Source of the DNA: a virus
DNA length: 26,705 nt
Direction: 5' to 3' (one strand)
Virus record (IMG/VR): IMGVR_UViG_3300035670_001091
Span: 1-26,705 of that record
Shown here: positions 20,838-24,261 of the stretch, piece by piece
How positions within the stretch are numbered: the stretch's first letter is position 1
Layout: each line of letters starts with the position of its first letter
Program-made: the position numbers and the translations under genes
The notes under the pieces: generated by a model
The model's input: only the letters and a program-made list of their open reading frames with translations
Database searches by the model: none
What the model was told of the DNA's origin: nothing

Positions 20838-21024
20838 AGATTCTATCTAGTGTTAATATTTTACCTGGTGCCATAGTTGTATCTCTTGCCCAGTCTTCTG
20901 CGTTTACAAATGTAAATTTATGCTGTTCAGCTGGCTCTACTTTCTTCTGCTCTGACAATTTACTGATGAATAGAGCAAAGATTGCAGACCAAGCTAGGAT
21001 CATGATGATTGATATCTGTTTCAT
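20821..21024 (-). CDS. Small protein with N-terminal membrane anchor (67 residues)
   Basis: The protein starts with a basic residue and a hydrophobic helix (MKQISIIMILAWSAIFALFI), followed by a polar domain (QKKVEPAEQHKFTFVNAEDW, RDTTMAPGKILTLDRIYEQGK). No lipoprotein box is evident. It overlaps the PrimPol gene by four bases (ATGA) and the VRR-NUC gene by 17 bases. The function is unknown; an anchor for replication proteins at the membrane is a speculation. Confidence 0.6.
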   Translation of the reverse strand: MKQISIIMILAWSAIFALFISKLSEQKKVEPAEQHKFTFVNAEDWARDTTMAPGKILTLDRIYEQGK

Positions 21025-23249
21025 TCTTTCTCTAGTTTTTTAACCCAGTTCTGAATTGTTCTCCTGGATACCTCAAGGATCTCAGATGCTGTTGTTCTGT
21101 TAATATTTGGATTTGCTTTATACATGGCCATGAATTGATCATGAGTATTTGATCCAGCTGATCTTGCTATCTGCTTGAGATTGTTTTTCTCTTTTACATC
21201 TCTTTTTACTAACTTACTCATGTTGATAAAATAATCAGATAGCTTTTCAGCTCTCAATAGACTATCAGTTTTTACTATCCCCATCTTGATAGAGTCATCA
21301 AATGCTGACCAAATTGTGTTGATGATCAATGCGAATCTTGGGATGTAGCTCTTTTGTTTAGGCAACATTGATTTCATGTACTCATTCTCATCATCTGAAT
21401 TCTGAATATCAGTAATCTGATCATGGATCCGTATCCATTCAGCTACTGCCTTGCTTTCAAACTTAGATACTGTTGATTCAATCTCACCTTTGTCATTAAA
21501 TTTCAATAGATTGCGCTGTATAGAATCTCTAAAGTTTATGACAAAGGATCTGTACCATTCAATAATATCCTCTTCAATATGCTTGTTATTATAGTGATTT
21601 ACATTTAGCTCAGGATAACTGATGAGAATCCTATCCACAAATCCATTCTCTTTATTGTCACCAGTAGTGAAGTCCTCAAATACTGATGGCTGTATACCGC
21701 CTAGCACTGGAATGAATGGCTTGTCAACAAATGCACTCTTGGATGTTTTACGATTGAGAGATATGCTAGTACCTGACCATGATGATAGCCAAAACTCAAG
21801 ATCAGATCCTTGTCTGTATTTATTCATGTCCTTAAACCATCCAGCTAGTTCATCCTTGAATATTCCTACAGCATTTGGATTCTGCTCATGTAGGTCCACA
21901 AGAGCTTCAAGAGTAATATCACCAACAAGAAACTGCTTGCTAACTGGCTTTGTTATCTCCTCAGCATATTGCTTTTCTTTCTTATCCAGTGCCTCATATT
22001 CTCTCCACTTGGCATATTGCTTCACATATTCTTTCTGCTCTCTGACATTTACCTCTCTAAGTGGGAATATCATCTGATTGATAGATGGCGTTTTTCCTAT
22101 ACCTGGTTTACCAACTATTGCAATCCATACTGTTGCAATCTCTTGCCATCCTGGCTTGACTTCAATCCTAGCAGAATTACCAATGATAACTGATGCCATC
22201 CAAATGAAAGCTGATCCCATGTAATCAATTGACAAACCTAATGTATTGGCTGACTCAATGATGTACTGCTGGATCTCATGAGGAAAGATATCAAGAGGGA
22301 ATTGTATCCTATCAATCTGTACTTCAGGCAGCTCATTCTTAAAGTCTACTTTAGGAATCTTCCTGGTACCATATCCTTGAGAATAGATATCAGATGCTGC
22401 CTTTGTCATATCACCATTGTGATACTTATAGGCATAGATTGCAAATGGTGACAGCAGCTGCTCATTAGGATACAATGTGCCAGTGCTGAATAGATACATG
22501 CATCCACTATCCTTGTAGACATATCCTGAATGTGGTGATGTCGCACCATGTCTTTTGATAATGTAGTTTGTGGATGTATTCCTTACAATTGTAAACTCAT
22601 CACTGATTAGGTCCATTGCTGAATGTCTCGAGTTATAGTCAACCCAAGGTGTGATATCATTCTCTGATGTGGACTTGTATTCACTTTTCTTAGGAGCATC
22701 AATCTTGACATTATCAATGTGATTGAATGTCTTTGATATGGACCAAATGATATCCCTCTCTTGTTCACTGATGTAGTCAATCTCATGATAGCTTTTAGAA
22801 TACAAAAAATTATCATATAGCACCACCATTCCTCCAGTGCCTCTTGATTCAATGATAGCCTCTTTCTGTCCTTTTAATCTAGCTATTTTTGTATTGCCAG
22901 CTGGAAACTTGCATTTGTACAAAATATGATATCCAGCATTCTTTGTCTTGGCAATTACTACCTTATCAGCAAAGTCCTCAATATTATCATTGATAAAAGA
23001 TAGGTATTCTTTCCACCATTCTTTCTGCTCTTGCAGTCCTACAATGACCTTGAGATCAACATCAATGCATTCCACATCATTAACACCAGTGACTAATCCA
23101 TACAATGGTGAATCCAATTGCTCCACCTCATCAGCTGATCTTGCCTTTGTTTGGTTTACCTTCCATAATCCTATTGGACTTTTATCTTGGTCCACTGGTA
23201 TTATTGAATAACCAAGTGAGGCTAATTTTCTTAGATATGATTTAGTCAT
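21021..23249 (-). CDS. PrimPol-DUF3987 primase/helicase
   Basis: The protein has 742 residues. The N-terminal PrimPol domain has a D63-V-D65 metal pair in ECIDVDLKV, H108 in GYHILYK and R136 in IESRGTGGMVVLYDNF. The second half (about 320-690) is a DUF3987-type ATPase with Walker A GKPGIGKT (380-387) and a Walker B-like FKDELAGW (464-471). The C-terminal 35 residues form a helix-turn-helix (RTTASEILEVSRRTIQNWVK). The likely role is primer synthesis and unwinding for phage replication. It follows the repeat-rich candidate origin, and a 25-residue leader ORF overlaps its start by four bases. Confidence 0.85.
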   Translation of the reverse strand: MTKSYLRKLASLGYSIIPVDQDKSPIGLWKVNQTKARSADEVEQLDSPLYGLVTGVNDVECIDVDLKVIVGLQEQKEWWKEYLSFINDNIEDFADKVVIAKTKNAGYHILYKCKFPAGNTKIARLKGQKEAIIESRGTGGMVVLYDNFLYSKSYHEIDYISEQERDIIWSISKTFNHIDNVKIDAPKKSEYKSTSENDITPWVDYNSRHSAMDLISDEFTIVRNTSTNYIIKRHGATSPHSGYVYKDSGCMYLFSTGTLYPNEQLLSPFAIYAYKYHNGDMTKAASDIYSQGYGTRKIPKVDFKNELPEVQIDRIQFPLDIFPHEIQQYIIESANTLGLSIDYMGSAFIWMASVIIGNSARIEVKPGWQEIATVWIAIVGKPGIGKTPSINQMIFPLREVNVREQKEYVKQYAKWREYEALDKKEKQYAEEITKPVSKQFLVGDITLEALVDLHEQNPNAVGIFKDELAGWFKDMNKYRQGSDLEFWLSSWSGTSISLNRKTSKSAFVDKPFIPVLGGIQPSVFEDFTTGDNKENGFVDRILISYPELNVNHYNNKHIEEDIIEWYRSFVINFRDSIQRNLLKFNDKGEIESTVSKFESKAVAEWIRIHDQITDIQNSDDENEYMKSMLPKQKSYIPRFALIINTIWSAFDDSIKMGIVKTDSLLRAEKLSDYFINMSKLVKRDVKEKNNLKQIARSAGSNTHDQFMAMYKANPNINRTTASEILEVSRRTIQNWVKKLEKE

Positions 23250-23323
23250 GATACAAAATACAAAAGCCCCTTCAGTTTTCGTGACGCACCACTACTCACC
23301 GAAAGAGCTTTCAATAATTTCAT
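23246..23323 (-). CDS. Possible leader peptide (25 residues) coupled to the primase gene
   Basis: ATG 23323 starts MKLLKALSVSSGASRKLKGL and ends at TGA 23248-23246, overlapping the primase ATG (ATGA). It is short, basic and has no recognised family. A promoter and inverted repeat lie immediately before it. It may only serve to couple translation to the primase, and may be untranslated. Confidence 0.4.
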   Translation of the reverse strand: MKLLKALSVSSGASRKLKGLLYFVS

Positions 23324-23326
23324 TAT

Positions 23327-23356
23327 ATATCCTGTGCGTAGGATATTGCAAATATA
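23327..23356 (-). promoter_or_regulatory. Promoter with overlapping inverted-repeat operator for the primase gene
   Basis: A TATATTTG box (23349-23356) fits the -7 consensus; the -33 is weak (no clear TTTG at the right distance). The predicted start, about 23342, falls within an inverted repeat: ATATCCT (23327-23333) and AGGATAT (23340-23346), six bases apart. This could be a repressor operator or a small RNA hairpin. Confidence 0.45.
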
Positions 23357-23403
23357 TAAAAAATAAGATAACACCATATAATTTGAATTTATTAATTTCT
23401 TAC

Positions 23404-23589
23404 TGTGCAAGGTGTGCAATGTGCACACCTAATTTCACACCTAATTTCACACCATTTTCTTAGTGTTTATAAGGGATACAGAGCAAAGTGCACACTTTTC
23501 ACACCTTTTTTGTTTTTTCACTTTTTTTCTTTGATAATTTTTTACAAAATATCTAGTGTGCACTGTGCAAGTGTGCAATGTGCACACCT
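23404..23589. repeat. Repeat-rich non-coding region, candidate replication origin
   Basis: A 26-27-base repeat occurs at 23404-23430 and 23564-23589, each starting TGTGCAAG and ending in a palindrome with arms around ATG: AGGTGTGCA/TGCACACCT (23410-23418, 23422-23430) and GTGTGCA/TGCACAC (23571-23577, 23581-23587). TTTCACACC occurs three times (23433, 23445, 23497) and a palindrome AAAGTGCACACTTT at 23485. No DnaA box of the usual form is seen. Position just upstream of the primase and downstream of a DnaA-like gene suggests an origin with iteron-like sites. Confidence 0.55.
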
Positions 23590-23590
23590 C

Positions 23591-23845
23591 TTATTCATAC
23601 AGTTGCACCCATTCTGTGACCTTACCAATGAAGTCATAATCCTCTAGGATCACAAGTCCAGCTGGAGATTTCTCAATGGGGCAATCAAACTCATCTCTTA
23701 GCATGAAGATATCTTTCTCAATGGATGACTGACTATAATTATCGGATAGGATATGATTTATCCTAGTGTGCAGTCTTGTAATTGTGTACGGCCTTTGTTG
23801 AAGGCAATATACAATAGCTGACATTCGTCTCAATTTGTTCCTCAT
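23591..23845 (-). CDS. Small winged-helix protein (WYL N-terminus-like)
   Basis: The protein has 84 residues: RRMSAIVYCLQQRPYTITRL then HTRINHILSDNYSQSSIEKD and IFMLRDEFDCPIEKSPAGLV. This helix-turn-helix plus beta wing pattern (SIEKDI..LRDEF..PI) is the N-terminal DNA-binding part seen in WYL-family regulators, without the WYL domain. It may repress early genes or bind the nearby GTGTGCA repeats. It overlaps the DnaA-like gene by four bases. Confidence 0.6.
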   Translation of the reverse strand: MRNKLRRMSAIVYCLQQRPYTITRLHTRINHILSDNYSQSSIEKDIFMLRDEFDCPIEKSPAGLVILEDYDFIGKVTEWVQLYE

Positions 23846-24261
23846 AGCAATTCTTTTAAGTTCTCCCTGGTGATGTATCCACTTCTATCGAGAAAGTGGC
23901 TAGAATCGTCTGTATTGAGCTTGAGCGTCAATGTAATCATATTGCCTGATACATGGTCAACACACATCCATACTTTCTCCTCTTCTATTTGTAGCAGATA
24001 ATCTTCATGTACTTCCTTGTGCAGCTCATTGATTGTCTTTAGATATTCATAGTCTTTGGCCCTCATCCAAATGTTGTGCTGCTTGAGTCCATGCAATACA
24101 GAACAGTGATCCATTCCAAACATCTTCCCAATTGCATCAAGGCTGTGCCATCTTCTAAGCTCTGACCAAAGATAATATCGTTTATAAACTATCTCTCGCT
24201 TTCTGTTTCTTACTTTCAGACCATGCTTCTCAGCTAGATCCATTATCATTGATGTGTTCAT
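23842..24261 (-). CDS. Stand-alone DnaA domain IV-like protein
   Basis: The protein has 139 residues. RKREIVYKRYYLWSELRRWH (residues 20-39) and SLDAIGKMFGMDHCSVLHGL (40-59) match the DNA-binding domain IV of DnaA, including the IG..FG.DH..V motif that reads DnaA boxes. No AAA+ ATPase is present. The C-terminal 70 residues are acidic with a beta section (MCVDHVSGNMITLTLKLNTD). It could recruit or replace host DnaA at the phage origin, which may be the repeat region 250 bases downstream. A regulator with the same fold is the alternative. Confidence 0.78.
   Translation of the reverse strand: MNTSMIMDLAEKHGLKVRNRKREIVYKRYYLWSELRRWHSLDAIGKMFGMDHCSVLHGLKQHNIWMRAKDYEYLKTINELHKEVHEDYLLQIEEEKVWMCVDHVSGNMITLTLKLNTDDSSHFLDRSGYITRENLKELL

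Follow-up and report, generated by a model that had tools for sequence, protein, structure and literature searches.

The locus described here raises the question of which protein reads a repeat array beside the primase-helicase gene of a phage. The window, by which we mean the whole 26.7-kb stretch of DNA that was analysed, is an IMG/VR virus contig that encodes a phage terminase, an Erf-like annealing protein, an exonuclease, and a Prim-Pol/DUF3987 primase-helicase. On its minus strand, the gene for an orphan DnaA domain IV protein (24261-23842) is followed by an 84-aa open reading frame (ORF; 23845-23591), a noncoding region (23590-23250), and the primase-helicase gene (23249-21021). A sequence-only reading had proposed an origin with its own recognition protein, the orphan; the origin-like region beside the primase gene, free of DnaA boxes, has held up, but the role given to the orphan has not. 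We consider it likely that the region is a self-contained iteron origin that is read by its own primase-helicase, and that the orphan is an accessory protein rather than the reader of the iterons. The features of the locus are as follows.

23842..24261, minus strand: orphan DnaA domain IV protein, 139 aa; DNA-binding module at residues ~1-86, then a beta-rich tail
23591..23845, minus strand: 84-aa ORF between the orphan and the array, overlapping the orphan stop codon
23554..23590, minus strand: outer iteron cluster GAGGTGTGCACATTGCACACTTGCACAGTGCACACTA
23512..23553, no strand: AT-rich stretch (83% A+T), candidate unwinding element
23485..23505, minus strand: inner iterons GGTGTGAAAAGTGTGCAC, which flank the core
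23452..23484, minus strand: conserved core GCTCTGTATCCCTTATAAACACTAAGAAAATGG
23410..23453, minus strand: three iterons in direct orientation, spaced at 12 bp (GGTGTGAAATTA, GGTGTGAAATTA, GGTGTGCACATT), with an inverted partner
23349..23356, minus strand: Bacteroidota-type -7 promoter element TATATTTG, its position and sequence shared by most relatives
23250..23348, minus strand: primase leader
23261..23339, minus strand: H-type pseudoknot in the primase leader RNA, with a U-rich tail after stem B
23339-23334 / 23289-23284, minus strand: pseudoknot stem A, ACGCAC/GTGCGT
23313-23298 / 23276-23261, minus strand: pseudoknot stem B, TGAAAGCTCTTTCGGT/ACTGAAGGGGCTTTTG
21021..23249, minus strand: Prim-Pol + DUF3987 primase-helicase, 742 aa
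21027..21146, minus strand: C-terminal helix-turn-helix (HTH) of the primase-helicase, aa 702-741 (HTH_11, E = 0.002)

Anatomy of the noncoding region

The two repeats that had been noticed are present, at about 23404-23430 and 23564-23589, and are near-identical: they measure 26 and 27 bases and differ by one inserted base. Also within the array are the palindrome-like AGGTGTGCAATGTGCACACCT and the TTTCACACC unit, the latter in three copies. There is more to the noncoding region than these repeats, however, since it extends over 23250-23590 and also contains the AT-rich stretch, the core, the promoter, and the structured leader. The orphan gene had been placed 250 bases from the array; it is near, but the 84-aa ORF intervenes. 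This ORF gave only a nonsignificant HTH-like match (PuR_N, E = 0.09); ORFs of 84 to 94 aa occupy the equivalent position in the nearest relatives and are absent there in most orphan loci.

GTGTGCA occurs eight times in the 26.7-kb window, with six of these copies within 23412-23587 (the GTGTGCA/GGTGTGAAATTA array), and the commonest 7-mer in 23380-23600 has six copies, compared to at most three in 1000 shuffles. Standard DnaA boxes are absent from the array region, as had been stated earlier: no TTWTNCACA, and hence no cluster of the kind expected of a DnaA-dependent origin, was found in 23404-23590, and the whole window has two boxes (6488 and 26054) against 3.8 expected. Across the orphan-bearing origins the boxes are likewise not enriched (5 found, 4.7 expected), which leaves the earlier suggestion that host DnaA is recruited to, or competed with at, boxes inside the region unsupported.

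Scans with the orphan and four primases yielded some 300 loci, mostly on viral contigs; primase homologues were also found in a handful of metagenome-assembled genomes labelled Bacteroidota and in one labelled Sphingomonadaceae. The cultured phage collection held no close relative and no match to the orphan. Dereplication at 96% primase identity left 92 loci with sufficient upstream sequence, and in 55 of them clear iterons form an array comparable to that at 23410-23590, which lies directly upstream of the primase-helicase gene. All parts of the region are present and conserved, and the overall architecture is common to all 55 loci; the iteron word varies by lineage (TGTGAAA, TGTAACA, TGTGACA, TGTAAAC, TGCGAAC, and others), as in these examples.

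Window: TGTGCA/TGTGAAA
L034: TGTAACA
L049: TGTAACC
L070: TGTAAAC
L038: TGTGTAA
L027: TGGGACA/TGCGACA
L199: TGCGAAC

In about 37 relatives, iterons were not detectable upstream of the primase gene. L255, L210, L225, and about 30 similar loci encode a similar primase-helicase, but the 1.3 kb upstream of it is free of iterons; such loci must have an origin at another place or one that works differently.

Between the diverging iterons lies an almost invariant core of ~30 bp. The TTATAAACA sequence within it occurs in 22 of the 55 related origins (2.2 expected), and in L209, which is distantly related and lacks the orphan, the longer core is nearly the same. The core is inverted in L050, L070, L194, and L201, and it also turns up on three contigs (L300, L307, and L311) that lack this primase in its vicinity. 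A host chromosomal site such as dif was considered and rejected as the identity of the core: an exact copy was present in 0 of 395 Bacteroidota genomes, and at three mismatches there was no excess over a reversed control.

Within the stretch from the promoter to the primase start, an H-type pseudoknot with a U-rich tail can form in 31 of 47 loci, compared to 0.4 expected after shuffling. Its stems differ in nearly every lineage and yet stay complementary through compensatory changes. A search of the leader against Rfam gave no credible match. The conserved fold suggests attenuator-like control of primase expression.

Covariation of the iterons with the primase-helicase

That a primase-helicase gene follows the array is borne out by domain matches to Prim-Pol (5.2e-7), DUF3987 (1.6e-52), and a PHROG helicase (2.2e-33). 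The C terminus of the protein is predicted to fold as a three-helix HTH (702-712, 718-725, and 729-741). Since the reader of a changing word must change too, the residues that read the iterons should vary with the iteron word. Using sliding windows over each of the two proteins, the primase-helicase and the orphan, we therefore asked how closely local sequence similarity follows the similarity of the iterons; overall relatedness was removed, and palindromic iteron words were set to one orientation by hand. The permutation P value of the partial Mantel test is reached even by weak orphan windows and was therefore set aside as evidence; the ranking of windows and tree-independent pairs took its place.

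Among 724 seven-residue primase windows in the 55 dereplicated loci (mean partial r of 0, standard deviation of 0.10), the top-ranking one was SRRTIQN, aa 728-734, with a partial r of 0.405. The covarying segment, S728-W735, belongs to the C-terminal HTH, and the best three single columns in the primase alignment, R730, N734, and Q733, all lie on one face of its recognition helix. All 12 loci with Arg734 have iterons that end in ACA, an ending found in 0 of the 43 loci without Arg734. When the HTH is excluded from tree building, this trait changes at least eight times on the tree, and the phylogenetically independent pairs are concordant in 8 of 8 cases (P = 0.008). Likewise, Arg730 is accompanied by a G as the fourth iteron base in 9-10 of 9-10 informative pairs (P of about 0.004), with L051 as an exception. 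The same pairings recur in distant proteins: TGTGAAA with helix SRRT[IV]IN in L052, L072, and L101, and TGTAACA with helix SR[IM]TI[HI]R in L034 and L102. The window shares helix SRRTIQNW with the distant L202, their iterons being TGTGCAA/TGTGCAC and TGCGCAA/TGCGCAC, respectively. When only the 28 orphan-bearing loci were considered, the localization to the HTH was weaker, the HTH window ranking second of 718 (0.391, versus 0.393 for a window near aa 640).

The windows over the orphan recognition helix gave partial r values of -0.007 (MDHCSVL) and 0.048 (DHCSVLH) against the iteron words. The orphan is also separable from the iteron origin: 28 of the 55 iteron loci carry it, in every case on the strand of the primase gene and 0.23-1.8 kb upstream of that gene, and the same architecture exists without it in L048-L052, L054, L101-L103, L195-L201, and others. 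A search at an E value of ≤0.1 did not find it in the 24- to 34-kb contigs L050 (25 kb), L196 (32.4 kb), L209 (30.8 kb), and L250, nor in that of L053 (33.8 kb), whose origin region was not captured; these absences are not proof, since the contigs may be incomplete. Conversely, a few loci without iterons carry the orphan (L249, L258, and L259).

These observations bear on two other accounts of the array. In the first, it is the orphan that recognizes the GTGTGCA iterons and brings in parts of the replisome. Its DnaA-type fold and contact residues are retained, its gene keeps its place upstream of the primase gene in every orphan-bearing iteron locus, and TGT is common to the complement of the DnaA box and to most iterons; however, its recognition residues do not track the iteron words, iteron origins exist without it, and the primase HTH accounts for the words position by position. 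We rejected the orphan as iteron reader, given the absent covariation and the iteron loci that lack it, and regard that role as very improbable. The other account, in which the iterons are operators at which the primase-helicase HTH or another protein regulates its own promoter while replication starts elsewhere, is also unlikely, if less so. A promoter (TATATTTG) and a structured leader do lie directly downstream of the array, and initiators that autoregulate at their own iterons are common in iteron plasmids. An array that flanks an AT-rich stretch and a conserved core nevertheless exceeds the needs of an operator, the iterons and core of L306 and L316 lie downstream of the primase gene, and the predicted binding protein is itself a primase-helicase.

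We therefore favor the primase-helicase as reader, and from the covariation and the layout of the locus we infer that it is the origin initiator and that 23250-23590 serves both as the phage replication origin and as the control region of the primase-helicase gene. The Prim-Pol/DUF3987 protein would bind the iterons, including those at 23410-23453 (minus strand), through its C-terminal HTH, with aa 729-741 as the putative recognition helix and R730, Q733, and N734 as the residues that would specify bases. It would assemble there as a self-loading helicase, open the adjoining AT-rich stretch, and then prime synthesis, by a mechanism like that of SaPI Rep and P4 alpha. Iteron and recognition helix change together by lineage, and each phage should therefore replicate only its own kind of origin.

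What is gained is a testable model that names the protein responsible for reading a given base. Taken together, the natural pairs of iteron and recognition helix amount to a recognition code, from which the origins of many uncultured Bacteroidota phages, and their compatibility, would be predictable, and the core and the leader pseudoknot are conserved elements that are open to direct testing.

The orphan DnaA domain IV protein

The orphan was correctly described as a DnaA DNA-binding protein without an AAA+ part: the ORF at 23842-24261 (minus strand) has homology to domain IV only, and the AAA+ ATPase domain III of a full DnaA initiator is absent from its 139 residues. The Pfam match to Bac_DnaA_C (PF08299; E = 4.9e-6, 26.9 bits) does not reach the curated cutoff of 31.5, but the homology is genuine, because DnaA chains are the only PDB matches to a profile of the orphan family (8btg, 2.1e-6; 1j1v, 1.6e-5) and the predicted structure (AlphaFold2, pLDDT of 82) is nearest to DnaA DNA-binding domains. 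The structural comparison with domain IV that had been proposed thus returned a match (Foldseek probability of 1.00 for 3pvp and 0.97 for 1j1v). Bac_DnaA_C is also matched by 26 of 27 diverse family members, the best at 1.1e-10. No part of the full orphan alignment was sufficiently conserved for a search to be based on it.

DnaA touches bases at positions 399, 423, 432-435, and 438-439 (PMC5043019). In the 27 diverse orphans, the equivalent of the minor-groove arginine R399 is kept in 26 and that of H434 in all 27; the positions equivalent to 423, 432, 433, and 435 vary, D433 being retained in only half of the family, so that an altered DNA specificity is possible. The basic loop RKREIV resembles that of Bacteroidota host DnaA, which R399, R401, R407, and H434 also match, and the orphan was therefore probably acquired from such a DnaA. 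A common host gene was considered as an identity for the orphan and rejected: 41 genomes yielded full-length DnaA and only two short proteins. Other short DnaA domain IV frames, L113 and L109 (164 and 182 aa), occur outside the phages studied, in the genome of L105, which is labelled Sphingomonadaceae.

The fixed place of the orphan in 28 of 55 loci means that it must matter there. We envision it as an accessory DNA-binding protein and, most likely, a regulator, which would either act at DnaA-box-like sites outside the region, on the host chromosome, or modulate the replication operon. A host-directed role, in which it occupies chromosomal DnaA boxes and thereby damps host initiation or frees replisome parts, is a tentative possibility that is compatible with an iteron origin read by the primase-helicase, since it concerns the orphan only. 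The likeness of its basic loop and invariant residues to Bacteroidota host DnaA speaks for such a role, as do the DnaA boxes, which are missing from the phage origin and not enriched in the window; a box-binding protein would therefore have its targets elsewhere. On the other hand, with 432, 433, and 435 variable, box specificity may have been lost, and the gene stays beside the phage origin, with no direct link to the host oriC. We think it improbable that the target of the orphan is instead the TTATAAACA core of the phage origin, a DnaA-box-like TTATnnACA to which it would bind by itself or in competition with host DnaA. The core is nearly invariant while the iterons change and fits 7 of 9 positions of TTATCCACA, but it is equally present in loci without the orphan, two of the contigs without this primase nearby carry it (L307 and L311), and the core is altered in several of the loci that have the orphan (L028, L031, and L072). 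The orphan is a clear instance of DnaA reuse, in which the DNA-binding domain serves without the motor.

Comparison with known systems

The orphan shares with DnaA domain IV (PF08299) the fold, the basic loop, the HTH, and the equivalents of R399, R407, and H434, and differs from it in the missing AAA+ domain, the altered positions 423, 432, 433, and 435, and the added C-terminal tail. Its reuse is reminiscent of the TnpA-REP transposases with a Bac_DnaA_C domain, in which a DnaA-type HTH also serves a mobile element outside DnaA, probably with another target (PMC6006769). Unlike the orphan, which is a separate small protein encoded by a phage origin, the HTH of these transposases is fused to an HuH nuclease.

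For SaPI Rep, an initiator helicase that the element itself encodes, it is established that the C-terminal domain reads the iterons, and there is support for the same in SCCmec Cch2 (PMC7581432). As in the phage locus, where binding is predicted, the helicase is encoded by the element and fused to or paired with a primase, and its C-terminal domain binds iterons in the adjacent origin (PMC7581432). The SaPI and SCCmec origins lie downstream of the helicase gene, whereas those described here are mostly upstream; the phage system also differs in its DUF3987 helicase family, its presence in Bacteroidota phages, and its additional core, leader pseudoknot, and DnaA domain IV gene.

Satellite phage P4 alpha binds its origin at GGTGAACAG-type iterons, and P4 has a regulatory leader RNA; we know of no orphan DnaA domain IV protein in P4. 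The replication proteins of P4 and SaPI have primase and helicase activity (PMC7145576), and alpha combines both in one protein (PMC7145576), as domain matches indicate for the phage protein, whose primase, in contrast, is of the Prim-Pol type.

One could regard the locus as an undescribed replicon module, in which a readable HTH-iteron code in the DNA and a lineage-specific pseudoknot attenuator in the RNA diverge jointly around an invariant ~30-bp core, which even phages without this primase share, and the truncated DnaA serves as a plug-in regulator in competition with host DnaA; we find this rather doubtful. Most likely, the system is an iteron initiator of the primase-helicase kind that works like SaPI Rep and P4 alpha.
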